Virus record (IMG/VR): IMGVR_UViG_3300005663_000150 | Location: 1-31,558 of that record | DNA from: a virus | Reading direction: 5' to 3' (one strand) | DNA length: 31,558 nt | Part shown: in pieces, positions 1,709-25,695 of the stretch | Numbering within the stretch: the first letter of the stretch is position 1 | How the letters are laid out: the number at the start of each line of letters is the position of its first letter | Notes under the pieces: generated by a model | Databases searched by the model: none | Told to the model about the DNA's origin: nothing | The model's input: the letters and a program-made list of their open reading frames with translations, nothing else | Translations under genes and position numbers: made by a program

Positions 1709-4700
1709 TTATTCCATTACCTCATTTATCTTTCTAGTGAAAGCGGTTCTGGCCCTGTTCTTTTCTTCCGCACTTATTTCAGGGTCTTTTATTATTCGGG
1801 ACAACGCAAACCTCAACTCAAGCATTCGAGCCTTCTTAGCTTTAGCTGTTTGAATAGGAGAAGGAGCCACCACGTTAAATCCAAATACCCTGCCTATGGC
1901 GTGTCCGGGTGTGGTGGTTCTGCCATATCTATCTTGCTTGCCAATACGGGAGGCGTAACCCAATGCTCCATATCTGGTAGCAAACGATGGCGCCCATTTA
2001 TTATATAGCCACTCCATTGTCTTGGCGGCTTTACCAGATGGACGGTCTAGTTCGTTGTATATCTCCCTGCCAGTGAATGGGTCTTTAGGTGGCAAATCTC
2101 CCCTCATGCCCTTAAATGCGGCGTATATGTCAAGGAATGGGTTGCCTATGCCAAGCCCTTCCAAGGTTTCTCTGGCATCTCTGTCATACATGGCTCGGCC
2201 CATTCCCATAAGGTTCCCCCAAGGGAAATAATACTCAAGATTAACCCACTGGTAACGACCTTCGGGTGATTTCCAAGGCACTATCATATAACTTTTTTCC
2301 TTCTTTATATATAAAGGCAGTTCTTTCTCTAGCCTCTCCCATTGTTTTTCCGATATATCGTCCCTGTCCTTTATCATCTCAGACATCATATAAGGTATGG
2401 CAAGGTACTTACCTATAACCCAAGGACGTTTTGCCAACGATTCCGCTATAAGTGGAGCCACCTTGTATTGGTAAGATATAAATGGCGCTATGTGGCGGCG
2501 TGCGAACTTGATTGCAGGATGCGCCAGTGAGTAATCCATCCCCCATTTCTGAGCCTGTCTAACAGAGCTAGGCACATCCACTCCCTTGCCAAGCTGTTCT
2601 AAGAACTTAGCCATTTTAAAGAAGTCGTCTATTTTGCCATACTGTTCAGCCACCTTAGACAATCCAGATAATACCTGTTGGTGGGGCTTGTTCTGTAACG
2701 GACGTATGGTGTCAAGCACGTCCTTTATCTCGGCTTGCGCCCAATTAGTTCTAAATAGTCCATTACGTTTGGCCTGTATGTATTCAGGCGTTTGAGCCAG
2801 TATGTGTTGCATTGCCTTAGTCATATGCACGGGTATCATCGGTAAGGGAATGCCCGACATATTAAGCTGGAATATATTTGATATTACATTCCTAAAAGCC
2901 GTGGGTGGGTTCAGCGCCACCTTTGCCACCTTAAATGCCGCCATACCCTTGGCTTCTATCTGCAATGCCGTGTCTACTATCCTTGACAGACCCGTGTTAT
3001 TCATGCTGTAAATGGGCATTATGTCTCTTGCAATGGGCTTACGCACAAAAGCCCCCGCCAATGGCCCGTAAGACTTTGACGTTGGTAATTGCACAAAGTC
3101 CTCTGGCACGTTAGCCGTCTCAGCCATAGCCCTATCAAGGGCTTGCGATAACGCATTGTACTTGGCTTTGATTTCAGGCACGTTAGGCGCTTGCTCGTAC
3201 ACCTCACGCATGACCTTAGTTTCTTCGGCAAGCTTGCCAATGCCCATACTCCTTGCCCTCAACTCACCCGGAAGCTTGATCTTTACCTTAGACGGTTGCC
3301 ATGTCCAGTTGGGATTCTCCGATATAGTGTTGAAGAAATCGTATTTGGCTATATTAGTTAGTGATTGCATAAGTCCAACTGGTGCCGATACCGAAACATC
3401 CTCAACAAGTCCAATAGCTCTCTGCTGTTCCTTTGTCAGGTCTTTTCTCTTCTTCAGATTAGACAAATCCATAGCACCGTTCTGACCGACCTTAATGGGG
3501 TTCTTCTCCCCCAATATATGCTTGAGATATAAATACCGCGTGTACTGACTCTTATTGGCCTGAAAAGTCTCCTCTGTAAGTAAGCCCCTTCTAACAAGCA
3601 TCTTACCCGTCATGTTCATGGTATTCCTTAAAGACTTCGCTAACCCCTGGGCATGGACGGGAATAGCGGTTACGTCCAATTCACCGTCAAGGTAGCGAAA
3701 CATATCTCTTTTAACTTCAGGCTCTAACTTATTGGTTCTCTTCCATATTTTTTTGGTAAAGGATTCAATTCTGTCAAGGTCGCCAAGAGATTTTGACCTC
3801 GCCTTCAGTAGTTTGTCTGATTCGGGAACGGTACTCAGCGGTTGCCAGAACTCTTTGAAACTCTTAGCCGCTTTCTTAGCCATCGCCGTCATTGGCCCCA
3901 CTTCAACGTGTCCGGCCTGTACGTCAATCTTAGGTAACGTGCCAGAGACTACGGCTTCTTCGCCGGGTAAAGCTACCTGTCTCTTGGCGGCTTCTGCCTG
4001 TGCTTGAGTTTGTTTGCGACCTTCAATATCGAATAACCCGCCTCTCTCTATAGGAGCCTCTTCTGCTGGCACTCGTCCCTCAAGTCCTTCACGAGCGCCT
4101 ATGAAATCAGGTTGTGTCGGCTTAACTCTTGGCAATTTAACATCCTGTGCTTTTAGTACAGGAGCCTCCCCTTCTTTCGGAAGCACCTTATCAACTCTAA
4201 TTTGGGAATCTGGTGCAAGTGGCCCAATAGTTTTTCCATCTTCAAGGAATACCTCGCCCTTATCATTAACAGTCTTGGTAAAGGTTTCGTCATCAATAAC
4301 AACTTTTTGCCCCTCTGCAATCTCAAAGTCTACATCTACAGTTTTCTTAGATATGGTATCAAAGTCTTCTTTGCTGGCATCTACAATATCATCTAATATA
4401 GCTTGTCCGCGACCGCTTAACTCCTTATTTTTAAGTGCTGACTTAATAGCACTACGGGCTTCGGCTTTTGTAAAGTCCTTTCCCTTTGTCCATTGTGTGG
4501 TAATGCTATCACCTCCAAATCCAAACACCTCTGGAGTGCCACCTTGCCTGTCAGCTTCTAAGAAAACTTTGCCACCCTTGGAAACGGGTTGGTCAAATAC
4601 TTCATCTAAAAACTCAAGATGGGATTTAGTGGGCGTTACCCCCTTCTCAACAGGTATTTCTGCCGCTACGACCCTCTCAGGAGCGACTATGGGGGCTTCA

Positions 4701-5308
4701 GGCACTTCCTTGGGCTTTATATCCCAGACTATATCAGATACTTTAGGAGCCTTGCCCGCTATCTTAGCCGCAGTCTTAGGCAATGCCCGTCCAGCCGTTC
4801 TCGATATAACTCTTTCTAAAGGACTTTCAAGACCTGCCCCCAGAAGACCACTAGAGACAAGGTTAAATGGAAGTGCGGCTTTAGGATATTTCTCTCCAAT
4901 AACATCCGTCAGCGTTCCGCTTATGGGTTCCGTTGCGGCTGCCGTGCTTCCGCTAAGAAATGCCTTAATAGCCGCCCCTGCCGGAGTAGCACCCCTTGAA
5001 AGGGCCATTTTGCCACCAGCGCCAAAGCCACCAGAAGCGGCTATTGCCGGGTCTATCCAAGGCGCTGTTTCGGCTGTGCGTTCTGTTTCAAAGTCCTTTA
5101 ATTGCGCCCTTATCTGAGTATATGACTTACCCTCTGCAAGCCCCTCAGTCACATGGCCTTGCAAAGAAGGCACTTGAGCAACCTGCTGCTCGACATAGTT
5201 TTTGTCGTCCATGTTATCCCACTTAATATCGGTGGCAATAACAGATTCGGCCTTACTTGGCTCATCCCATTTTATGTCACTTTTCAGGGGCAATGGTTCC
5301 GTCTCCAT
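1709..5308 (-). CDS. Giant internal virion / polyvalent-type ejection protein
   Basis: About 1199 residues from ATG 5308; a TTG at 5356 would add 16 but overlaps the upstream gene by 80 bases. The N-terminus has two DIKWD motifs (about 12-30). An Ala/Gly-rich stretch (85-170) follows, then a module with EVFGFGGDS and an EARSAIKSALKNK helix (about 260-310). A strand-rich acidic segment (FEIAEGQKVVIDDETF) comes next, then a long helical C-terminal half with KVALNPPTAFRNVISNIFQLN-like residues. This layout resembles large polyvalent proteins packaged in virions and injected with DNA. I see no catalytic motif, and the N-terminal half may be mosaic. It follows three smaller ejection-like genes and precedes lysis. 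Confidence 0.7.
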   Translation of the reverse strand: METEPLPLKSDIKWDEPSKAESVIATDIKWDNMDDKNYVEQQVAQVPSLQGHVTEGLAEGKSYTQIRAQLKDFETERTAETAPWIDPAIAASGGFGAGGKMALSRGATPAGAAIKAFLSGSTAAATEPISGTLTDVIGEKYPKAALPFNLVSSGLLGAGLESPLERVISRTAGRALPKTAAKIAGKAPKVSDIVWDIKPKEVPEAPIVAPERVVAAEIPVEKGVTPTKSHLEFLDEVFDQPVSKGGKVFLEADRQGGTPEVFGFGGDSITTQWTKGKDFTKAEARSAIKSALKNKELSGRGQAILDDIVDASKEDFDTISKKTVDVDFEIAEGQKVVIDDETFTKTVNDKGEVFLEDGKTIGPLAPDSQIRVDKVLPKEGEAPVLKAQDVKLPRVKPTQPDFIGAREGLEGRVPAEEAPIERGGLFDIEGRKQTQAQAEAAKRQVALPGEEAVVSGTLPKIDVQAGHVEVGPMTAMAKKAAKSFKEFWQPLSTVPESDKLLKARSKSLGDLDRIESFTKKIWKRTNKLEPEVKRDMFRYLDGELDVTAIPVHAQGLAKSLRNTMNMTGKMLVRRGLLTEETFQANKSQYTRYLYLKHILGEKNPIKVGQNGAMDLSNLKKRKDLTKEQQRAIGLVEDVSVSAPVGLMQSLTNIAKYDFFNTISENPNWTWQPSKVKIKLPGELRARSMGIGKLAEETKVMREVYEQAPNVPEIKAKYNALSQALDRAMAETANVPEDFVQLPTSKSYGPLAGAFVRKPIARDIMPIYSMNNTGLSRIVDTALQIEAKGMAAFKVAKVALNPPTAFRNVISNIFQLNMSGIPLPMIPVHMTKAMQHILAQTPEYIQAKRNGLFRTNWAQAEIKDVLDTIRPLQNKPHQQVLSGLSKVAEQYGKIDDFFKMAKFLEQLGKGVDVPSSVRQAQKWGMDYSLAHPAIKFARRHIAPFISYQYKVAPLIAESLAKRPWVIGKYLAIPYMMSEMIKDRDDISEKQWERLEKELPLYIKKEKSYMIVPWKSPEGRYQWVNLEYYFPWGNLMGMGRAMYDRDARETLEGLGIGNPFLDIYAAFKGMRGDLPPKDPFTGREIYNELDRPSGKAAKTMEWLYNKWAPSFATRYGALGYASRIGKQDRYGRTTTPGHAIGRVFGFNVVAPSPIQTAKAKKARMLELRFALSRIIKDPEISAEEKNRARTAFTRKINEVME

Positions 5309-5957
5309 ATTCAACCATACGTTTACCCGTCTTCTTATCAACACCAGTTCTGACAACAGTTGCCGCCTGTTTCATCTGAGCCTCAAGTGCGGCCTTTTGC
5401 TTGGCTGGTATATATTTCATTAATTCAGCTATTTCGTCATCATATGCTTTACGGCTTTCAGGAGATATTTCGCCATAGAACTTTGCCTTATCTATTTCCT
5501 TATATATAACACTGATGCGTTTAAGTGCTTGCCGTGGCGTGGGGGGCTTGCCAGTTGTGGTAGTGGGTTTAAATCGTGGCCCTCTGCCAATATCTTTCAT
5601 CCCACCAGCCGTAGTGTATTGCTGAGAAACAACCTCTTCTCCTTCTATACGGGTGCTGGCAGTTGGCTTAACAAGTCCAGCCGCCATTCTGTCCTGCTCA
5701 TTCATCATCTGGCTTTTCTTGTATTCGGCAGATAACTCATTGGCCCTTCGATCTATAGCGCCTTTGATTCCACCACCATAAGCCAACGCTCCAGCCGCTA
5801 CAGGGCTTTGCCCCATCCTTTGCGCTATAAGGGCAGATGCCGCCGCACCAAGGACAGAACCCCATCGTGCCGCTGGCGACACGCCAAGCACGCTCTTGCC
5901 GGAGGGGGATTCCTCTCTTATTCTTGCACGCTCTCGTTCAAACGCTTCATTTGCCAT
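5277..5957 (-). CDS. Putative ejection / internal virion protein
   Basis: The 226-residue protein starts MANEAFERERARI after an AGAGG ribosome site. It has a short Ala/Gly-rich hydrophobic patch (about 30-65: SVLGAAASALIAQ...AAGALAYGGGIKGAI) that could insert in a membrane. A Thr/Pro linker (about 115-140) and a charged helical C-terminal region (QALKRISVIYKEIDKAKF onward) follow. I do not recognise a named family. Its place between a Pro-rich protein and the giant virion protein suggests it is one of the proteins released into the host at infection. Its last 32 bases overlap the giant gene if that starts at 5308. Confidence 0.65.
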   Translation of the reverse strand: MANEAFERERARIREESPSGKSVLGVSPAARWGSVLGAAASALIAQRMGQSPVAAGALAYGGGIKGAIDRRANELSAEYKKSQMMNEQDRMAAGLVKPTASTRIEGEEVVSQQYTTAGGMKDIGRGPRFKPTTTTGKPPTPRQALKRISVIYKEIDKAKFYGEISPESRKAYDDEIAELMKYIPAKQKAALEAQMKQAATVVRTGVDKKTGKRMVEYGDGTIAPEK

Positions 5958-12546: not shown

Positions 12547-13875
12547 TTATACTATCGCCAATGCTAAACCAGCGTTATGTATCTTCTCTATTTCGTTCAT
12601 ATCAAGTACTCTGTTCCAAACTGCTACTTCATCAATCATCCCATCCCAATAACCCAACCCATTCAAATATCCAATACGGTCTTCTATATCTGCATCAGCA
12701 AGGATATTTCCGGTAGTGGTGTCAGGTGTACCGGCTACCAAGTCGAGATAAGGAATTAGATTTGTTCCATCCCATGTAAATGTAACCATGTGCCATGTAT
12801 CTTGAGTAAGATCTGCCGTTCTAACACCACCATCTGTTGTTCCTCCAGTGGTGGTGGTTATATGTAGGCGTAAATATGACTCCGCATTCACTCCCCATAA
12901 CCAAGGAGTTCTTTTGTTAAGACCACCACGAGCAAAAACACCTCTTTCCCCAGACACAATACCACCAACAAAAGGAATTGTGTCAGCCTTCACCCATATA
13001 TTAATTGTAAATGCTTTCGCTCCATCAAGCATCGTAGTCAAACCAAAACTAAGATATTGGTTTATTCCATCAAAACTGCCACTACGCCCTAGCTTGCCAC
13101 CTGCGATAGTTGTTACACCATTAACGGCCTTTCCGTGGTTATAATTATTCGTTATTGCCGACCCCGTAGTAGCTACAAATGGCCCCAACGCGGATGAGTT
13201 TTCCAACTGCATGTCTGTGAATGTATTTATCCCTTGGGCAGTGACCAGCCATGTTCCAGAACCATCAGTATTAACAGCGGGATAGTAATCAGCCCTTGCA
13301 AAAGTATTGCTAGTGCCATTATTCTGCAAAGTAAGACTGACAAGTAAGTCAGTTCCAACTTCTTCAATAGATGTAGCATAAGGGGCTACTGTACCACCAC
13401 CCGTGCTTTTAGAAGTGATGGTCTTATTGTATGGGTCTATTGTTATCCCTGCTTGAATACTTGTCCCTCCGATGTAGAGCCATATCATAATACCTGCGTA
13501 ATAGCTTGGAGCAGAACCTTTGATTGGCACTTTACAACTCATCGTATAGAAATCTTCATCCTCTATAGGATTAACTGTAAATAATACACCTTCCATCGCC
13601 CCAGCATCATCGTCCTCTAATGTGGTAGATGTTACTATAGGCGTACCAGAAGAAGACCATCCGGCAGCGGTGAGATCGTTTGAATTTAGTATTAAATTCT
13701 GAGAAACTGGCCCACTCTTGCCGGAACTGTCTTTTACTTCCCCGATTGAGCCTTCCCAAGCACTTTCTTCCATGCGCCAATAAGCTACAAGGCCAACGGT
13801 TAAAGGCGAGTATAAAGCAGACGCGCCTAAAGCAATGCTTTGGTCATGCCTTGTAGGTTTATACAAATTAGACAT
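12547..13875 (-). CDS. LamG-domain virion protein with inserted beta domain
   Basis: The 442-residue protein begins a concanavalin A/LamG fold (GLVAYWRMEES..VKDSSG, about 28-52). The fold is interrupted by about 180 residues and resumes at NHGKAVNGV..KLGRSGSFDGINQYLSFG (about 246-277), running to the typical end GMIDEVAVWNRVLDMNEIEKIHN. The insert (NLILNSNDLTAAGWSS.. to DMQLENSSALGPFVATTGSA) has the order of carbohydrate-binding-like domains of phage head fibres. The protein probably binds cell-surface or matrix glycans. It overlaps its upstream neighbour as TAATG. It lies next to the sugar-modifying cassette, so it could also be a target of it (inference). Confidence 0.75.
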   Translation of the reverse strand: MSNLYKPTRHDQSIALGASALYSPLTVGLVAYWRMEESAWEGSIGEVKDSSGKSGPVSQNLILNSNDLTAAGWSSSGTPIVTSTTLEDDDAGAMEGVLFTVNPIEDEDFYTMSCKVPIKGSAPSYYAGIMIWLYIGGTSIQAGITIDPYNKTITSKSTGGGTVAPYATSIEEVGTDLLVSLTLQNNGTSNTFARADYYPAVNTDGSGTWLVTAQGINTFTDMQLENSSALGPFVATTGSAITNNYNHGKAVNGVTTIAGGKLGRSGSFDGINQYLSFGLTTMLDGAKAFTINIWVKADTIPFVGGIVSGERGVFARGGLNKRTPWLWGVNAESYLRLHITTTTGGTTDGGVRTADLTQDTWHMVTFTWDGTNLIPYLDLVAGTPDTTTGNILADADIEDRIGYLNGLGYWDGMIDEVAVWNRVLDMNEIEKIHNAGLALAIV

Positions 13876-14228
13876 TATGAACTATCCTCTAATTCAAGGG
13901 TGAAGTCGGCATCACCACCACTTCCAGTATATGTTTTAAGGTTCCCTCTGATTCTGGAAGCAAGTTTGTCTGAAGAGAAGAACCCCGCCGCAAGAGCGGT
14001 TATTTCATCAGCGGTATATGTATGTGTTACAAGCGTAAACCATGTAGCATCGGCATCAAGAACACCTGCCGGGTCTGCACTCCACTCAACATCAATTTTT
14101 ACCACTGTTACAGTGTCTCCATTTGCTACCCAAAAAGACTTGAAAGCAAAAAACCTCTTCGGCTTTTCAAACGTCTTTGAACTTCCCGCACCTGTAACTG
14201 CAACTCCATTAAGCAGCACGTCTCCCAT
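13875..14228 (-). CDS. Hypothetical virion-region protein
   Basis: The 117-residue protein is mostly beta-strand by composition (VLLNGVAVTGAG, TVTVVKIDVEWSADPAG, WFTLVTHTYTADEITAL, DADFTLELEDSS), without Cys or catalytic motifs. It looks like a small structural or joining protein. GGAGGTATTATC is a strong ribosome site. It overlaps the heptosyltransferase-like gene by 20 bases and the LamG gene as TAATG, so the sugar cassette and the fibre genes appear to be in one transcript. No family recognised. Confidence 0.6.
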   Translation of the reverse strand: MGDVLLNGVAVTGAGSSKTFEKPKRFFAFKSFWVANGDTVTVVKIDVEWSADPAGVLDADATWFTLVTHTYTADEITALAAGFFSSDKLASRIRGNLKTYTGSGGDADFTLELEDSS

Positions 14229-15195
14229 GATAATACCTCCATTGGTCGTAGTAGTTTTGAATTGCGTTTAACACCGTTGCCGGAGCAACGGATGTCATAC
14301 AAAGAGGGGTGTTCGTACCCTTATCCAACACACACGTACTAAGTGAGAAATGCAGTTTATGACACGGATGACACTCTACGTCAGGCTCTATAGACGTACA
14401 ATTCCTCCAATGCCTTGAAAGGTTCTCAGAAGAGGAATGACTTAGCAGAATTACCTTGGGAGTGCTAAAACATCCGGCAGCATTCAATATGCCCGTTTCG
14501 GTTCCTATCACAAGGTCTGCGTACTTCGTCATTATAAGGCTCTTTCTCAACTGCCACTTACCCGATCTCTGAATGGTTCGTGGATGATCCCATTCAAGCA
14601 AACGACACACGTCATCCCCCACGGTAATAATTACGGCATCATCATAGGCATCGAGAAAAGCCCTTGCGGCCTGTTCTGCCATAGGCCATGACTTATGATG
14701 CGAACTGCCGGATAACGACCATAGAATGACGAACTTGCCCTTGTATTTCTTCATCTCATCTCTTGCCCGTAGGCGTTCGACAGCGCTAAAGAAAAGTTCG
14801 CCATTTAATCCCGTCTCGCCTCTGCCTCCAAGCCTGAGAGTTTCGTCATAATAATTCCTGTCGCATTTCTCATGCCTTTTATCGTGAGGCCAGCCAAACT
14901 CTTCCTGATAAGATGTAACTAACAAGCCATTCTCTATAGATGCCGTCAGATTTATATGCTCGTCATATCCCTTGGCAAGTTCGTCAAGGTGCTCGTCCAA
15001 TTTCTCTATCGGAATAGACTCGTCATGGACGATATACTTGTCAATATAAGGGTTATACTTTAAAACTGTCTTGCTATAACCCTTACAGTTCAGAGTTATG
15101 TGGTTGCCCTCTTCTTTAAGAAGTCGCAGAAGTGGGGTAATCATTATCATGTCGCCAATGGCTCCAAGGCGTGTTATGAGTATTCTTTTAGCCAA
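14209..15195 (-). CDS. Glycosyltransferase family 9 (heptosyltransferase-like)
   Basis: 328 residues from TTG 15195, preferred because GAGGAAGG lies upstream and the start becomes MAKRILITRLGAIGD, the usual opening of GT9 enzymes. A GTG at 15207 would add four residues. Motifs: RLGAIGDMIMITPLL at the N-terminus, a SWPMAEQAARAF helix, and the acceptor/donor loop GTETGILNAAGCFSTPKVIL. A Cys-rich end (CHPCHKLHF..CVLD..LCM) is seen in many GT9 proteins. Family members move heptose from a nucleotide donor onto lipid A core sugars. In a phage it may modify host LPS or a virion glycan. Its start overlaps the zinc-ribbon gene by eight bases. Confidence 0.75.
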   Translation of the reverse strand: MAKRILITRLGAIGDMIMITPLLRLLKEEGNHITLNCKGYSKTVLKYNPYIDKYIVHDESIPIEKLDEHLDELAKGYDEHINLTASIENGLLVTSYQEEFGWPHDKRHEKCDRNYYDETLRLGGRGETGLNGELFFSAVERLRARDEMKKYKGKFVILWSLSGSSHHKSWPMAEQAARAFLDAYDDAVIITVGDDVCRLLEWDHPRTIQRSGKWQLRKSLIMTKYADLVIGTETGILNAAGCFSTPKVILLSHSSSENLSRHWRNCTSIEPDVECHPCHKLHFSLSTCVLDKGTNTPLCMTSVAPATVLNAIQNYYDQWRYYHGRRAA

Positions 15196-15322
15196 AACCT
15201 TCCTCACACTTATAGCAGTAATAAGGTGGATGTTCTTCTCTTTTAACGTCCATCTTACGTTTGCAGTTATTGCATATAACTGAAATCTTCAACGGACGTT
15301 TGTGAACGATTATTGTTGTCAT
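15188..15322 (-). CDS. Small zinc-ribbon protein nested between sugar genes
   Basis: The 44-residue frame MTTIIVHKRPLKISVI then has Cys17-x2-Cys20 (CNNC) and Cys36-x2-Cys39 (CYKC), the spacing of a minimal zinc ribbon. GGAGAAAGGCA precedes the ATG. It starts inside the end of the dehydrogenase fusion gene (56-base out-of-frame overlap) and its stop overlaps the GT9 start, so it would couple the two. The four-cysteine pattern and good ribosome site make it likely to be real although short. Confidence 0.65.
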   Translation of the reverse strand: MTTIIVHKRPLKISVICNNCKRKMDVKREEHPPYYCYKCEEGFG

Positions 15323-16427
15323 TGCCTTTCTCCATCCTCCTTGCCGGAATACCAGCCCATGTCTCTCCGGCGGGAATGTCTTGAGTTACTACAGCGCCCA
15401 TACCTATTAACGCTCCAGCGCCAATTACAACGCCTGGCCGGATGCACACACCCGCACCTATCCTCGCACCTACGCATATCAGCGTTTCTTGCCATTTGTC
15501 CTTACCTGAAGGCGGGTACATATCGTTTGAGAAAGTCACCCTTGGCCCTATCCAGGCATTGTCCTCAATAATCACTCCTTCTGGAATAAAGGCATGTGCG
15601 CCAATCCTTACATTGTCGCCAATAACCACGTTATGGCCTATCTCACTGAAAGCCCCGATAGAGACATTTTCCCCTATCTTGGCACTTGGGTATATGTTGC
15701 ATGGTTCCCATATCTTAGGAGCGGTCTCAGACTCTTCTGCGTACTTTAAAACCTCGTCCAACATGGGGTTCGGGTACTGCTCGTTAAGAAGCCTCGTATT
15801 CTGAGTTACGCAGTGACCGCCTATAACATCTGTCAGCTTATCGAATACCGGACGCTGCAAGTCTTCCCCAACATGCAGGTTATAATCCTCATCCCACTGA
15901 CAGGAGTGATGGTAGTCGTCCCCCATTGTCTTCTTCTGATACTTAGCAAACGCTAGGGAAACACCGTATTTAGCCAAGCACATAAGCTTTAACTTCTCTG
16001 TGGTTGACGTAAACGGAGTATATTTCACTTTAAATCCAGCCCCGTCTAAATGAACTTCAAGTTCTGGGTAATGTGCGCCTCCAACCCATTTCCTATATTT
16101 GAGCAAATCCTTTTTCATCCTGTTATGCCGTCCCTGTATAGGACTGTGAACTACACTGCACCCAGAGCTTTTTTCAATACTAAGCGTAGTTCCAATAGGA
16201 ACGGTGCTGTGGATAATGGTTACTTCAGGACTATAACGTTCCTGATAACGCAAAACCGTATCCACAAAATCATCTGAATACGGAATGCAGACATGCATAA
16301 ATTGTACTTGCTCAGGTGACTGAGGAGTAGCTTTATCTACCCCCAGCATATCTGGATAAGCTTCTTTAAGAATCTCAAATAACGGCTGTCCTGTCTCTCC
16401 CAGACCTATTACTATCCCTGTTCGCAT
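15267..16427 (-). CDS. Fusion: UGDH-like dehydrogenase domain plus left-handed beta-helix acyltransferase
   Basis: 386 residues. The N-terminal 230 have a nucleotide-binding start (GIVIGLGETGQPLFEIL, 4-20). HSTVPIGTT (73-81), Lys147 in EKLKLMCLA and GGHC at 203-206 follow, the order found in UDP-sugar 6-dehydrogenases. The usual Asn after the Lys is not conserved and the core is shorter than normal. From about 243 to 365 run hexapeptide repeats (AKIGENVSIGAFSEIGH, RIGAHAFIPEGVIIEDNAW, GVVIGAGALIGMGAVV) ending IPAR. This is a trimeric N- or O-acetyltransferase fold of the WbpD type. GGAGGTTTT precedes the ATG. It probably oxidises or binds, then acylates, a nucleotide sugar. Confidence 0.75.
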   Translation of the reverse strand: MRTGIVIGLGETGQPLFEILKEAYPDMLGVDKATPQSPEQVQFMHVCIPYSDDFVDTVLRYQERYSPEVTIIHSTVPIGTTLSIEKSSGCSVVHSPIQGRHNRMKKDLLKYRKWVGGAHYPELEVHLDGAGFKVKYTPFTSTTEKLKLMCLAKYGVSLAFAKYQKKTMGDDYHHSCQWDEDYNLHVGEDLQRPVFDKLTDVIGGHCVTQNTRLLNEQYPNPMLDEVLKYAEESETAPKIWEPCNIYPSAKIGENVSIGAFSEIGHNVVIGDNVRIGAHAFIPEGVIIEDNAWIGPRVTFSNDMYPPSGKDKWQETLICVGARIGAGVCIRPGVVIGAGALIGMGAVVTQDIPAGETWAGIPARRMEKGNDNNNRSQTSVEDFSYMQ

Positions 16428-17299
16428 AAAACCTCCGATTTTAGTTTGTCAACTATTCGTCTTACCGTCACGTACTGGTTCCAGCCAAACTTTATATTCA
16501 CCATATCCAGATAAGCACTGGAATTGTATTCTGATTCGGAAGACATCATAGCCACGGCCTCATCAACTGAATTGAAGGTATAGCCCTCGAATTGCTGTCT
16601 TGCTCCGGGCCAGTTATGGACAACGGGCTTGATTCCCTTTGCCATAGCCTCTATGACATTGTTGGGATTGCCCTCTGAGATAGCCGTGGAGAGCAAGTAA
16701 TTCTTATACTCAAGCCATGTGTCCATATCCTTAACGTGACCGCTTAGAATCACTTTCACGCCAAGACTTCCGGCAATTACTTGAAGATAATCCATCGTAG
16801 CCGAACACTGAATCTCGCCAGCGATATGAAGCTCGTAGTCTTTTGGCAGCTTAGACATTATCTGAAGAGCCAGGGGCAGGTTCTTCTTCTGATTGACAAA
16901 CCCAACCCACGCCACCTTCTTGCCATGACCACGCTTTTCAAATGACCAAATGTCGGGGTTCACGCCGTTATAGACAACTTCGGGCGTAACACCAGTATGT
17001 TCCCTGAAAATCTCAGCCAAATAGTCATTGACGAATATAACCTTATCCACCTTAGACCAGTCAAAACTTGCAGGGTCGTAAGTAAATATCTCATATCTGC
17101 GACAAAACACAACGTAAGTGCATTGTTTTTCATTGTTATTTATAAAGTCCCGTGTCTTGTCGTCCATCCACATAAATATCATAACGTCAGAATTGTCGTG
17201 CTGTGGCGTTTCAGTCCACTTAACCTCACAGTCATGGAAGACCTTGTTATAGCCCCTGATCCATTGCATGTGGAATTGATTTACTATTTGTATCTTCAT
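16412..17299 (-). CDS. Glycosyltransferase, GT-B fold (GT4-like)
   Basis: 295 residues from ATG 17299, which overlaps the methyltransferase stop as TAATG with GGAG eight bases upstream. A longer frame to 17392 lies inside that gene and is rejected. Motifs: VVYNGVNPDIW before the C-terminal Rossmann domain, then KVAWVGFVNQKKNLPLAL, ELHIAGEI and the donor-site stretch ISEGNPNNVIEAMAKGIKPVV, an E-x7-E arrangement of retaining GT4 enzymes. The first half is short, so the acceptor domain is reduced. The donor sugar cannot be told. It overlaps the downstream fusion gene by 16 bases. Confidence 0.75.
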   Translation of the reverse strand: MKIQIVNQFHMQWIRGYNKVFHDCEVKWTETPQHDNSDVMIFMWMDDKTRDFINNNEKQCTYVVFCRRYEIFTYDPASFDWSKVDKVIFVNDYLAEIFREHTGVTPEVVYNGVNPDIWSFEKRGHGKKVAWVGFVNQKKNLPLALQIMSKLPKDYELHIAGEIQCSATMDYLQVIAGSLGVKVILSGHVKDMDTWLEYKNYLLSTAISEGNPNNVIEAMAKGIKPVVHNWPGARQQFEGYTFNSVDEAVAMMSSESEYNSSAYLDMVNIKFGWNQYVTVRRIVDKLKSEVLCEQG

Positions 17300-17931
17300 T
17301 AATTCTTCTCCAGTGTTATCCATTGATACCGCCGTTTTTCGCCTAAACCCCACTCCTTGAGCAACGTAACCCTTGCATCCGCACCAAGGCACAAATTGTA
17401 AAGGTCGTGAGACTTGAATCCGTGATCGAAATTCCTGTCATGTTCAGTCGTCTTTTCATCCAGGGGATTGTTTATGAACATCATCCCCCTGTCCTTCAGC
17501 ACCCTGCCTATCTCGCTATAGGACTGCTCCCTCTCATCGGGGTGTATGTGTTCAAGGACATCAAAGAGAAATACGGCATCAAACTCGTTATCTTCAAAGG
17601 GAAGATTATCTGCCATAGCCTTAAATGTGTCAAGGCCGAACATCTCTTTTGCCCCCTGGACGAATAATGGACTGACATCGGTGGCTTTGATTGAGATATT
17701 TTTCATATACATCAGGCGAATCATGGCACTGGTTATCCCAATACCACATCCTATCTCCAGAATATTTATATCGGTCATATCGTATTCCAAAAGTTTTTTA
17801 GATATATAGCGCACCTTGGCATAATTCACTCTGATTAACTTTGTTTCCATAGGATTCTTGCCGCTGTAACAATTAGTAGCCACGGCATCCCAATACTCCT
17901 CTGTAGTTGGCTTTCTCTCTTTTGTTAGCAT
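17299..17931 (-). CDS. Class I SAM-dependent methyltransferase
   Basis: The 210-residue protein has motif I NILEIGCGIGITSAMIRL (about 56-72), an acidic residue for the ribose in IKATDVSP (Asp85), motif FDAVFLFDVLEHIHPDE (about 117-133) and GRVLKDRGMMFINNP after it. This is the pattern of small-molecule, often sugar O-methyltransferases found in polysaccharide clusters. With glycosyltransferases on both sides and 7-base and 1-base overlaps to them, it most likely methylates the same glycan, possibly capping it. A DNA-methylating role is less likely because no NPPY/DPPY motif is present. Confidence 0.8.
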   Translation of the reverse strand: MLTKERKPTTEEYWDAVATNCYSGKNPMETKLIRVNYAKVRYISKKLLEYDMTDINILEIGCGIGITSAMIRLMYMKNISIKATDVSPLFVQGAKEMFGLDTFKAMADNLPFEDNEFDAVFLFDVLEHIHPDEREQSYSEIGRVLKDRGMMFINNPLDEKTTEHDRNFDHGFKSHDLYNLCLGADARVTLLKEWGLGEKRRYQWITLEKN

Positions 17932-18986
17932 TTCGCCACCTTGTGATATAACCCCTCAAGCTTGTCTATATGTCTCTCCATTGTGAATTGCTGTCTAATC
18001 TTTAAAAGTTTCTCACGGCATATTTTATGTTCGCCCCACCTGTTGGTTAGTTCTTTTAATGATTCGACCCGAATCCCTATCCCGTGTTCTTCAACAAATT
18101 CTCCACAGTCACGGGCGTTAATCGCCACAATGGGTACTCCTGCCGCTATGTACTCAAACAGCTTGTTGGGCATGGCGACATCCCACTCCGCTGTTTTCAT
18201 TATATTCCCAAGCAAACCCCAATCGTGCCTAGCCACATGAGCCAACATCTCCTCAAAAGGTAGGGCTGCATGGACAAAGGCTATGTCATCATAAATATCC
18301 ATAAATGGCTGATCTGTACGTGTTGCGTATATATGAAAATCCATACCCAAGTCATTAGCATGTTTCGCAAAGTCCTCATAAACGGCGTACTGAAAACCAC
18401 GCATACGGGCGGTCTTATCTATATCTGACTGTATATCACATCTTCCCTCGTAAACCAGACCACCAAGCCAGGACTTGCCATGATACTGATAGAATTGCCG
18501 TGGAACATATGAGGGGAGGACGATATAAGGCTTGTCTATTTTAAATTCATTTAGAATTATATTGGCAAATTTCTGAGAAGGAAAAACCAGAGCATCGGCC
18601 AGTTGGAAGTTGTTGCGCTCCTCTACGCTAACCCTGAAGGTATCAAGCCCCTCCTTGCGTTGTGCGTCTTCCTCTTCGGGAGTTGTTCTTGCAAGAAACG
18701 AATCATGGACATCTAGCACAACAGGGACATTGCATTGTTCTTTAATTGCCGTTACAAACCACGAAGGCTCGTTATGTACGTGGAATACATCTGTTACGCC
18801 TGAGTGCATTTCGATTGCATCTATATAATTGTTTACACCAAAAGTGTATGTGAAGGTTTTATACCACTCAACAAATGGCACTTCCTTCTTGGCAATCAAT
18901 CTAACATCGTGTCCTCTATCCATTAACGGTATCCCCATCTTATGAACCCGTATGCATGCATGTCCGGCCACCTTTGTTATTCTCAA
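17925..18986 (-). CDS. Glycosyltransferase, GT4-like, TTG start
   Basis: The 353-residue protein starts at TTG 18986 with GAGG six bases upstream; no ATG gives a better start. N-terminal half: RITKVAGHACIRVHKMGIPL..RGHDVRLIAKK, a GT-B first strand and helix. FHVHNEP and VVLDVHDSF are characteristic of GT4 acceptor domains. The C-terminal half has LGMDFHIYAT and the donor motif MPNKLFEYIAAGVPIVAIN with GEFVEEHGIGI. It is the first gene after the capsid terminator and probably acts first in the cassette. The sugar and acceptor are unknown. Confidence 0.8.
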   Translation of the reverse strand: MRITKVAGHACIRVHKMGIPLMDRGHDVRLIAKKEVPFVEWYKTFTYTFGVNNYIDAIEMHSGVTDVFHVHNEPSWFVTAIKEQCNVPVVLDVHDSFLARTTPEEEDAQRKEGLDTFRVSVEERNNFQLADALVFPSQKFANIILNEFKIDKPYIVLPSYVPRQFYQYHGKSWLGGLVYEGRCDIQSDIDKTARMRGFQYAVYEDFAKHANDLGMDFHIYATRTDQPFMDIYDDIAFVHAALPFEEMLAHVARHDWGLLGNIMKTAEWDVAMPNKLFEYIAAGVPIVAINARDCGEFVEEHGIGIRVESLKELTNRWGEHKICREKLLKIRQQFTMERHIDKLEGLYHKVAKC

Positions 18987-19048: not shown

Positions 19049-19570
19049 TTAAGCGTAATCGTCATCCTTGACCCAGTTCGTACTGAACTGTCGTACCCAG
19101 TCAACGAAGAACGCCACCGAACCACCGATAGTACCGATGTTTGATGTACCGTTGGCGGTAGTAGCTGAAGCAGTCCTTATCTTCAGATACCTTCCATCCT
19201 CCACTTCCTGTGAAGCGAGGTTTGAACCGCTTTTTGAAGCAATGATGTGGATAGCCGTGCGTCCCGTGGCCTGAGCCACAAGATGAGCGGTTCCCATCAC
19301 AACCGAAGCAGTACCGCTTGAGTTCGTCTTCAGAAGACGGAACGGCAACCAGTCTGACTCGTTTGTTGCAGGAGAGGACAAGGTAGCAAGCACCTTGCAA
19401 CCAAACCTTAGAATCTTAATCGGGCCTTTAGGCTGCCAGCGAGTGATTTTGTCACTCGTTGTAGCACTACCAGAAAGAACAATAGCCGTACCTGAGCCAC
19501 CGTGCTTTTGGGTGAGGCCAAACCATTTGCGCTCGACAACTCCAAACATGCTTTCGTCATAAATCGCCAT
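19049..19570 (-). CDS. Putative capsid-associated (decoration-like) protein
   Basis: 173 residues from ATG 19570, chosen over 19603 for GGAGGA eight bases upstream. The sequence is Ser/Thr/Ala/Gly-rich with many strands (GTAIVLSGSATTSDKITRW, RYLKIRTASATTANGTSNI) and ends GGSVAFFVDWVRQFSTNWVKDDDYA. It directly follows the major capsid gene and precedes a terminator, the usual place for a small, abundant head protein. No named family is recognised, so decoration is an inference from place, size and composition. Confidence 0.6.
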   Translation of the reverse strand: MAIYDESMFGVVERKWFGLTQKHGGSGTAIVLSGSATTSDKITRWQPKGPIKILRFGCKVLATLSSPATNESDWLPFRLLKTNSSGTASVVMGTAHLVAQATGRTAIHIIASKSGSNLASQEVEDGRYLKIRTASATTANGTSNIGTIGGSVAFFVDWVRQFSTNWVKDDDYA

Positions 19571-19587
19571 ATTGTCTGTCCTCCTTT

Positions 19588-20547
19588 CTAGGCCGAATCC
19601 CATTTGATAATACGAGAGTTAGCTGCGGTATCCCAGTAAATCTTAAACCCGCCAAGGAAGTACCAAGCCAGGCCGTGTGAACGCCCATAATCCGATTTTT
19701 CCTTGACACGTATCTCTTCGGGAATCGCAATAGCTTCCTTAACGGTCTCGCCGCCGAATAAATAGGCATCGAGACTTTTTGTGCCTGTCCACGATTTAGC
19801 AGTGGCTGTACGAGCGGTGGAACTATAGGTGAATCGAGAAGCGAAACCATCTTCGACAAACCTTACGCCGTAGTACCTACCCATCTCACCTTCAAGAAGC
19901 TTTTTAAGCCCCCTGTCGCTGTACTGGTAGATTGACTCCAGCGCACCAGTCAGACCCTCCATTGCTTCATGTGAACATATCATCACGTAATCGCCGCCGA
20001 GCTTGCCGTAGCCGGGTACGTTACGTTTCTTGAGTTCCAGAATCATTTTACGCACATGGTAAGTGTTCAGGATACTCGTGTTAGTCGCCGTAGCGGTTCC
20101 GTTCGTGGTAAGGACATAGCCACCCGTAGCGGTTCCGACATAGCGGAGTTTGGTCTGGTTAAACTCGCGCTCCACCAGACCATCCAAGCACTTCGCCTTG
20201 TCGTCCTTGAGGCCACCAGTTATGATCTTCTCAAGTTCGAATTTGGAAAGCGTAGTAACCTTCTGAGTGAAAGGTATGCTGTTGCCTTCCTCGTACATCG
20301 TAAGCGTTCCCCACGATTTGGCCTGTGTGGATTCGTGCATGGTATTTGTTTCGGTAAGTCTGCCGCCAAATGTTCCGAGGTCGGCTACCCTCATCCAGTT
20401 GACAGACTCGCCTTCGTGTTTACCAAGGGCTGATTTAATATCCGTAAACTGTCTGAACTTCTCAAGAGGTTGTGAAGAAAACACAAACTTCTTGGACAGT
20501 TTAGTGTTTGATAAATAACCGCCTTGGTCTACCCAAGTTTCAGCCAT
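19588..20547 (-). CDS. Major capsid protein, N4-gp56 family
   Basis: The 319-residue protein is within the usual range for the N4-gp56-type HK97-fold capsid family. Typical stretches are GTLTMYEEGNSIPFTQ, the Thr/Asn-rich loop before LNTYHVRKMILELKKRNVPGY, YVMICSHEAMEGL, YGVRFVEDGFASR and LDAYLFGGETVKEAIAI. It forms the icosahedral shell together with the scaffold encoded just upstream. Start at ATG 20547 has AAAGG about nine bases upstream. Confidence is high from motif order and position between scaffold and decoration-like gene. Confidence 0.88.
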   Translation of the reverse strand: MAETWVDQGGYLSNTKLSKKFVFSSQPLEKFRQFTDIKSALGKHEGESVNWMRVADLGTFGGRLTETNTMHESTQAKSWGTLTMYEEGNSIPFTQKVTTLSKFELEKIITGGLKDDKAKCLDGLVEREFNQTKLRYVGTATGGYVLTTNGTATATNTSILNTYHVRKMILELKKRNVPGYGKLGGDYVMICSHEAMEGLTGALESIYQYSDRGLKKLLEGEMGRYYGVRFVEDGFASRFTYSSTARTATAKSWTGTKSLDAYLFGGETVKEAIAIPEEIRVKEKSDYGRSHGLAWYFLGGFKIYWDTAANSRIIKWDSA

Positions 20548-25618: not shown

Positions 25619-25695
25619 TGGTGGCAGGGCCGGGACTCGAACCCGATTTAAGATGGGCATGAGCCACCTTGAGATTCCAAGACCTCCCCCCTGCA
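25619..25695 (-). tRNA. tRNA-like gene, anticodon CAT, with encoded CCA
   Basis: The minus strand folds as a cloverleaf: acceptor TGCAGGG / CCCTGCC, then discriminator A and an encoded CCA. The D arm is GAGG / TCTC with TTGG in the loop. The anticodon arm GGTGG-CTCATGC-CCATC has T33 and anticodon CAT (Met, or Ile if modified). The variable loop is TTAAA and the T arm is TCGGG-TTCGAGT-CCCGG. Odd points: the first acceptor pair is T-C, positions 8 and 14 are not the usual T and A, and one extra base lies between D and anticodon stems. A 1:72 mismatch is a feature of bacterial initiator tRNA, but the three G-C pairs of initiators are not all present (TGG/CCA). It may be functional or degenerate. 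Confidence 0.65.

Follow-up and report, generated by a model that had tools for sequence, protein, structure and literature searches.

Glycosylation of virions as such is already known. In work by Freeman et al. (2023) that PMC12619734 and PMC12363180 cite, phage-encoded glycosyltransferases have been reported to glycosylate capsid and tail-tube subunits of mycobacteriophages Che8, Corndog and Myrna. The locus described here lies in a 31,558-nt stretch of viral DNA (IMG/VR record IMGVR_UViG_3300005663_000150; the window) and shares with the mycobacteriophage system the presence of phage-encoded glycosyltransferases. Che8 gp108–110, however, had no significant blastp similarity to any enzyme of the cassette found in the window; the genes of gp108–110 occupy the extreme right of the genome rather than a place next to the major capsid protein (MCP) gene; and neither a GT9 enzyme nor a sulfotransferase is annotated there.

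Other described systems resemble single parts of the locus. GT9 enzymes (WaaC/WaaF, the solved structure 3tov) have in common with the GT9-type enzyme of the window the GT-B fold, the conserved Asp and Lys, and a four-Cys cluster located about 106–115 residues past the Lys. In comparison with WaaC/WaaF, however, the window enzyme scored under all curated LPS-enzyme cut-offs; its family resides in phage head modules and in relatives is frequently fused to a methyltransferase. TibC modifies protein, on serines (PMC4358343). With TibC/Aah the window enzyme shares a GT-B fold match (E about 5e-9) and Asp and Lys in matching order; its four cysteines are similarly spaced, but this is a general GT9 trait, and it has neither a TIGR04414 match nor the N-terminal beta-barrel domain. 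As to O-antigen conversion (gtr), no member of the GtrA flippase or GtrB polyprenyl glycosyltransferase families was seen among the six cassette proteins; gtr systems have a membrane transferase, whereas the highest 19-residue hydropathy in these six proteins was 1.8.

The first-pass annotation had placed a six-gene glycan/methyl cassette between capsid genes and genes of the fibre/adaptor side. All six genes are present at 14209–18986 on the minus strand, the enzymes with Pfam, profile or fold support, and the known active-site motifs of the enzymes are intact. In the order of genes, GT4 glycosyltransferase a (353 aa; 17925–18986; PF13439, E 4e-8, and PF13579) has relatives at the same place that are 44–57% identical; it is followed by a class I SAM-dependent methyltransferase (210 aa; 17299–17931; PF08241, E 2e-16) with intact EIGCGIG motif, and by GT4 glycosyltransferase b (16412–17299; PF00534, E 3e-10) with the E-x7-E motif. 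For GT4 b the ATG at 17299 is a more likely start than the GTG at 17392, where the ORF opens, as judged from alignment of homologues and from gene overlap. Next come a fusion protein (386 aa; 15267–16427) described below, a 44-aa zinc ribbon (15188–15322; CxxC...CxxC) overlapping both its neighbours, whose relatives at the equivalent locus were found only in L002, L003 and L114, and the GT9-type glycosyltransferase (14209–15207). The cassette genes mostly overlap, as had been claimed; a gap of 62 nt separates GT4 a from the gene upstream, thus not every gene overlaps.

On one side of the cassette is the MCP region. The MCP gene (19588–20547, minus strand; PHROG 1357 major head protein, E 3e-19) overlaps by 16 nt the gene of a 184-aa protein (19049–19603, minus strand), a probable head decoration protein; the latter had no significant Pfam or PHROG family, and its homologues were observed only directly after MCP, at loci sharing this GT4 set. 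On the other side, downstream of GT9, are a 117-aa protein (13875–14228, minus strand), a LamG/ConA-like virion protein (12547–13875, minus strand; PF13385, E 5e-17; 'virion structural' in PHROG), followed by a zinc finger and an adaptor of SU10 type. The position of the cassette among these genes suggests that it is late and cotranscribed. A promoter scan of the window found sites no more numerous than in shuffled sequence, with no clear break.

The C-terminal half of the fusion is a left-handed beta-helix (LbH) sugar N-acetyltransferase (PF00132, E 4e-19), with nearest solved relatives among sugar N-acetyltransferases (7s43, WxcM-like 4mzu, QdtC 3fs8, 3mqg). The N-terminal half is weakly UGDH-like (PF03721, E 0.05, 13.6 bits versus cut-off 27); it contains GxGxxG, HSTVPxGT and GGHC motifs, and no UDP-binding C-terminal domain was recognisable in it. 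The combination of PF03721 with NAD, central and UDP-binding domains expected of a UDP-glucose/GDP-mannose dehydrogenase was thus not found in this protein. Searches with the fusion produced a single further IMG/VR contig (55% identical), and the structure model built from this two-sequence alignment was unusable (pLDDT 35). The fusion most resembles sugar N-acetyltransferases and UDP-sugar dehydrogenases of diamino-uronic acid pathways (WlbB/WbpD, WbpA, WlbA): the LbH half matches acetyltransferases of this kind, and relatives have a Gfo/Idh/MocA protein at the equivalent position. In contrast to these pathways, the dehydrogenase half forms part of a fusion, has diverged strongly and is devoid of a detectable UDP-binding part, and an aminotransferase was not seen here.

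The GT9-type enzyme could be assigned with the help of its family. The family profile matches the solved GT9 structure 3tov (E 1e-6), and the AlphaFold model (pLDDT 94.8) has GT9 enzymes as best structural matches in Foldseek (3tov, E 6e-16; WaaF, 8e-14; also WaaC and TibC); according to this model the product of 14209–15207 would have a GT-B fold nearest to GT9 members. PF01075 did not match the window protein itself, but did match relatives in L171 (30.6 bits) and L172 (27.6 bits) at a cut-off of 22. The first-pass annotation had named catalytically dead enzymes in relatives as a finding that would speak against its readings; this does not hold for GT9, as all 96 of the 96 dereplicated sequences retain Asp19 and Lys172, the catalytic Asp and the donor-binding Lys (their correspondence to TibC D110 and K230 was judged from order and motif rather than from superposed structures). 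The family had no match among 50,697 phage records. TIGR04414 (TibC/Aah) was not among the NCBIfam matches of the window protein at E <= 0.01; a TIGR04414 search of 274 genomes had no matches, with controls giving none either. The model has no N-terminal beta-barrel, its first Rossmann strand starting from residue 8. We also considered a TibC-like four-Cys iron finger as a sign of a protein acceptor. C279, C282, C292 and C303 are conserved in the family; a like motif is present in 37 of 41 cellular GT9s, therefore it is no pointer to a protein acceptor.

Comparison of gene content in related phages, which had been proposed along with the cassette, was made for more than 100 related contigs seeded by MCP or by GT9; presence of MCP at a locus was judged from six-frame profile searches and ORF lists. 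GT9 was found downstream of MCP on the same strand in all 59 informative MCP-seeded viral contigs, and MCP was found upstream in 61 of 61 informative GT9-seeded ones (the remaining contigs were truncated). GT9-bearing sequences cover 41 MCP groups at 80% identity. Hold-out genomes agree, with MCP upstream in L178 and a connector after GT9 in L177. The module also occurs in a prophage of a cultured strain, Pseudothauera rhizosphaerae (L165). What phages of different backbone have in common is the block from MCP, its head-side edge, through GT9, its tail-side edge, these two being its constant members: homologous loci outside numbered 130 for MCP, 127 for GT9, 12 for each GT4 and 19 for the methyltransferase, while for the scaffold, LamG and 117-aa proteins no homologous loci were found in phages of different backbone. 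The portal is 14–21% identical, whereas MCP is 49–62% identical in the closest group. The genes lying between MCP and GT9 are exchanged among relatives (sulfotransferase, Gfo/Idh, GT2, GT17, radical SAM, Maf-like), the enzymes being mostly of glycan-tailoring type. Furthermore, in alphaproteobacterial prophages whose HK97-type MCP is unrelated (PF05065 in L171 and L172; assigned by gene order in L181 and L182), the same GT9 family occupies the same slot, between the MCP/decoration gene and the connector; late genes of such prophages should be silent in the lysogen.

Judging from this pattern in sequence, the cassette is probably a capsid-glycosylation module embedded among the head genes. GT9 would place the first sugar, in the cytoplasm late in infection, on a candidate head protein (MCP or its small downstream neighbour); both GT4 enzymes would lengthen the glycan, the fusion may provide a nucleotide sugar (an acetylated amino or acidic one), and capping of the chain would fall to the methyltransferase. 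Benefits could include particle stability or masking. In relatives GT9 is retained and the rest exchanged (sulfotransferase, radical SAM, other glycosyltransferases, a methyltransferase fused to GT9); related phages would thus wear different surface sugars. Since a single gene (GT9) is predicted to be necessary for the whole coat, the model permits a clean test. The LamG protein, earlier put forward as acceptor, is missing from cassette-carrying relatives, which leaves that proposal unsupported.

Of the two readings offered by the first-pass annotation, virion glycosylation thus gained strong indirect support, while a change of LPS at release lost support. According to the latter, the cassette alters host LPS or capsule late, sparing released progeny re-adsorption to debris or infected cells, and GT9 is a core heptosyltransferase. 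Surface polysaccharide clusters typically hold GT4, UGDH-like and acetyltransferase genes, gene types found in the cassette; WaaC and WaaF do belong to the GT9 fold family, and a cytoplasmic core-LPS enzyme needs no membrane partner. We nevertheless consider this reading unlikely, because GT9 keeps with MCP and the head module across phages whose portal and tail modules are dissimilar, and because its scores against NCBIfam LPS heptosyltransferases I/II/III were 17–19 bits, far under the equivalog cut-offs of 134–467. Two further observations argue in the same direction: HK97-type prophages, too, have GT9 among their head genes, and the cassette of the window lacks flippase, polyprenyl-glycosyltransferase and any strongly hydrophobic segment.

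One could also suppose that MCP and GT9 are mere neighbours in one recombining block, with the sugar genes being morons of mixed or unrelated targets. Neighbouring blocks do get exchanged among phage genomes, and the genes lying between MCP and GT9 vary greatly. The correlation between MCP and GT9 sequences, 0.38 overall, became 0.01 as a partial correlation given portal; the apparent co-evolution was gone once portal relatedness was removed, and a specific GT9–MCP contact is left without support from co-variation. Still, some lineages should lose passengers, yet GT9 was present in every informative uncultured locus, its catalytic residues are invariant, and an unrelated MCP has acquired a neighbour of this family at the equivalent position; we see passenger status as rather improbable. 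A role of the enzymes in glycosylating phage DNA, with hypermodified bases as the product, instead of protein is very improbable: DNA-acting phage glycosyltransferases are known (Pyle 2024, as cited in PMC12619734), but the cassette is located among head genes rather than with replication genes (the early region being outside the contig), and swapped methyl-, acetyl- and sulfotransferase sets are unlike base glucosylation.

With regard to the acceptor within the capsid-glycosylation module, a Thr-rich MCP hairpin (TTNGTATATNT) was considered. Its motif, [ND]G[TS], was present in 60 of 79 GT9-linked MCPs and absent from GT9-less isolates. The latter, cultured E. coli and Vibrio phages in which MCP functions without GT9, form one clade in a quick tree, and 19 linked MCPs have no motif; the hairpin was not accepted and remains a lead.

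More broadly, the evidence is evenly balanced on whether this is a portable capsid-coat module, widespread in uncultured phages, in which an MCP, a dedicated GT9 (its family recruited next to two or more MCP families that share no detectable sequence similarity) and swappable enzymes would generate a lineage-specific, serotype-like glycan. If true, capsid glycosylation would not be a mycobacteriophage rarity, but a fixed trait of a large uncultured phage group present in many metagenomes. The role of phage sulfotransferases has been called unclear (PMC10580990); a function would then be offered for many phage glycosyl-, methyl- and sulfotransferases that are currently classed as auxiliary metabolic genes or as modifiers of the host.

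On the minus strand of the linear IMG/VR viral record (31,558 bases) the genes run in the order terminase, SU10-type portal, scaffold-like protein, major capsid protein (MCP, PHROG 1357; 19588..20547), 184-aa protein (19049..19603) and cassette (14209-18986); 3′ of the cassette follow a 117-aa protein, the LamG protein (12547..13875), a zinc finger, an SU10 adaptor and tail/virion genes. The six cassette genes of the first-pass annotation (GT4a, methyltransferase, GT4b, UGDH-like/acetyltransferase fusion, zinc ribbon and GT9) are present as described; its statement that all overlap fails for GT4a, which is preceded by a 62-nt gap. The more probable start of GT4b is ATG 17299, not GTG 17392, and from this ATG it would overlap the methyltransferase stop by one base. 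Consensus scans, which are weak evidence, found no clear transcription break. Elsewhere in the window, a tRNA-Met (cat) gene (25619-25695) precedes the terminase gene on its strand, and searches of Pfam, PHROG and PADLOC gave no match for a 1,215-aa protein in the virion gene region (1709-5356).

We retrieved viral contigs by MCP and, independently, by GT9, and sought the partner gene with six-frame profile searches. Every informative MCP-seeded locus (59 of 59) had a GT9 gene downstream of MCP, at 0.43-5.6 kb (25 contigs stopping <3.7 kb past MCP are outside this count), and every informative GT9-seeded locus (61 of 61) had MCP upstream (with 12 incomplete contigs set aside); some entries in these counts repeat a contig. 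The 79 different MCP sequences accompanied by an observed GT9 cluster into 41 groups at 80% identity. Because the search patterns are biased towards close relatives, the 100% linkage is valid for that circle. One clade of cultured E. coli and Vibrio phages, nested in the midpoint-rooted tree, has the MCP but no GT9, so GT9 was either lost there or never gained. Once portal relatedness is accounted for, GT9 sequence shows no covariation with MCP.

The MCP is 49-62% identical in the nearest group, and the portal is only 14-21% identical between the window and most MCP relatives; thus, the window backbone differs from theirs. When profiles built from the window lineage were run against the other loci, matches were found for MCP (130 loci), GT9 (127), methyltransferase (19), GT4a (12), GT4b (11), the 184-aa protein (10) and the UGDH-like/acetyltransferase fusion (6); scaffold, LamG and 117-aa proteins matched in none, and the shared block therefore has MCP and GT9 as its ends. 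Only the window lineage (L002, L003) shares the zinc ribbon.

One scan of prokaryote genomes found the GT9 family in 11 records, seven with the same MCP (L162-L164 and L166-L168 by profile, L165 by its ORF). L162, Thaumarchaeota MAG contig JAGWFS010000009.1, is binned as archaeal and bears this phage head module; a binning error is possible. L171 and L172 are HK97-type prophages with a PF05065 MCP (L171 additionally with PF04860 portal and S78 protease), with GT9 placed between the MCP/decoration gene and the PF05135 connector; inspection of the reading frames in two IMG/VR contigs, L181 and L182, showed the same arrangement. Genome samples of the two host classes (385 and 369) each gave one new GT9 member besides the query genome; MCP is upstream of GT9 in L178, and a connector-like protein is downstream of it in L177. 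The GT9 domain had no match in any of 50,697 annotated phage records; one phage-record search gave matches to the fused methyltransferase part only.

Pfam gave clear assignments for the two GT4s, the methyltransferase and, within the fusion, the acetyltransferase half; the other, UGDH-like half has diverged, with motifs that suggest descent from a sugar dehydrogenase. The window GT9 protein (14209..15207) had no GT9 match in Pfam; its family profile matches GT9 structure 3tov, and its predicted model (pLDDT 94.8) matches 3tov, WaaF, WaaC and TibC. Among 96 dereplicated sequences Asp19, Glu92 and Lys172 are invariant and four cysteines near-invariant; judged by these conserved residues, the protein is under selection as an enzyme. 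The TibC-like cysteines are common to GT9 enzymes in general and do not point to a protein acceptor.

Enzymes between MCP and GT9 are swapped among relatives. In L005-L016 a sulfotransferase (PF00685; e.g. L005:1852-2484) is the sole one recognised, which suggests a sulfated capsid sugar. L017-L019 carry GT4, methyltransferase, GT4, Gfo/Idh/MocA and sulfotransferase (L023 the same minus methyltransferase); L002 has a second GT9, fused to a methyltransferase; the alternative cassette of L003 (2734-6978) encodes an MptE/Maf-like transferase-methyltransferase fusion, a radical SAM/SPASM protein, a sulfotransferase and a small kinase-like protein. Further relatives have GT2, GT17-methyltransferase, Wzy-like and other proteins; in one, L108:2598-4196 of this interval encodes an O-antigen-ligase-like (Wzy_C) protein with TPR repeats. 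The GT9 has an N-terminal extension of >120 aa in 28 of 40 lineages, with a methyltransferase in most extensions scanned. Fusions of about 1,040 aa immediately after MCP (L122:4962-8072, L124:9362-12544) join methyltransferase, GT9, nucleotide-sugar transferase and FkbM methyltransferase, and could possibly act as one-protein glycan factories. Five loci (L008:3490-3996, L009, L012-L014) have, between sulfotransferase and GT9, a 168-aa HNH-like, zinc-knuckle protein with no Pfam match that looks like a homing endonuclease; in these the GT9 N-terminus differs.

Lysogenic conversion is disfavoured by the location next to temperate-phage head genes, since by established phage biology such genes should be silent in the lysogen. 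The LamG protein, named earlier as one example of a possibly glycosylated virion protein, is excluded as a general one by its absence from the other loci. Among the proteins found, MCP alone is as constant as GT9, which favours MCP as the putative acceptor. MCP residues 147-157 (window 20077-20109) form a Thr-rich hairpin, TTNGTATATNT; its motif [ND]G[TS] is present in 60 of the 79 GT9-linked MCPs and absent from the GT9-less E. coli/Vibrio clade. This hairpin is a possible glycan acceptor, the pattern representing one evolutionary event only. In the simplest account, the cassette would build a capsid glycan, with GT9 as the fixed first transferase and the remaining enzymes extending and capping it.

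Our literature search, which reached few subscription journals, found no report of this module. The feature is real and conserved, a head-module glycosylation cassette whose target is most likely the capsid. Virion glycosylation itself is already known; what is unusual here is the degree of fixation and swapping.
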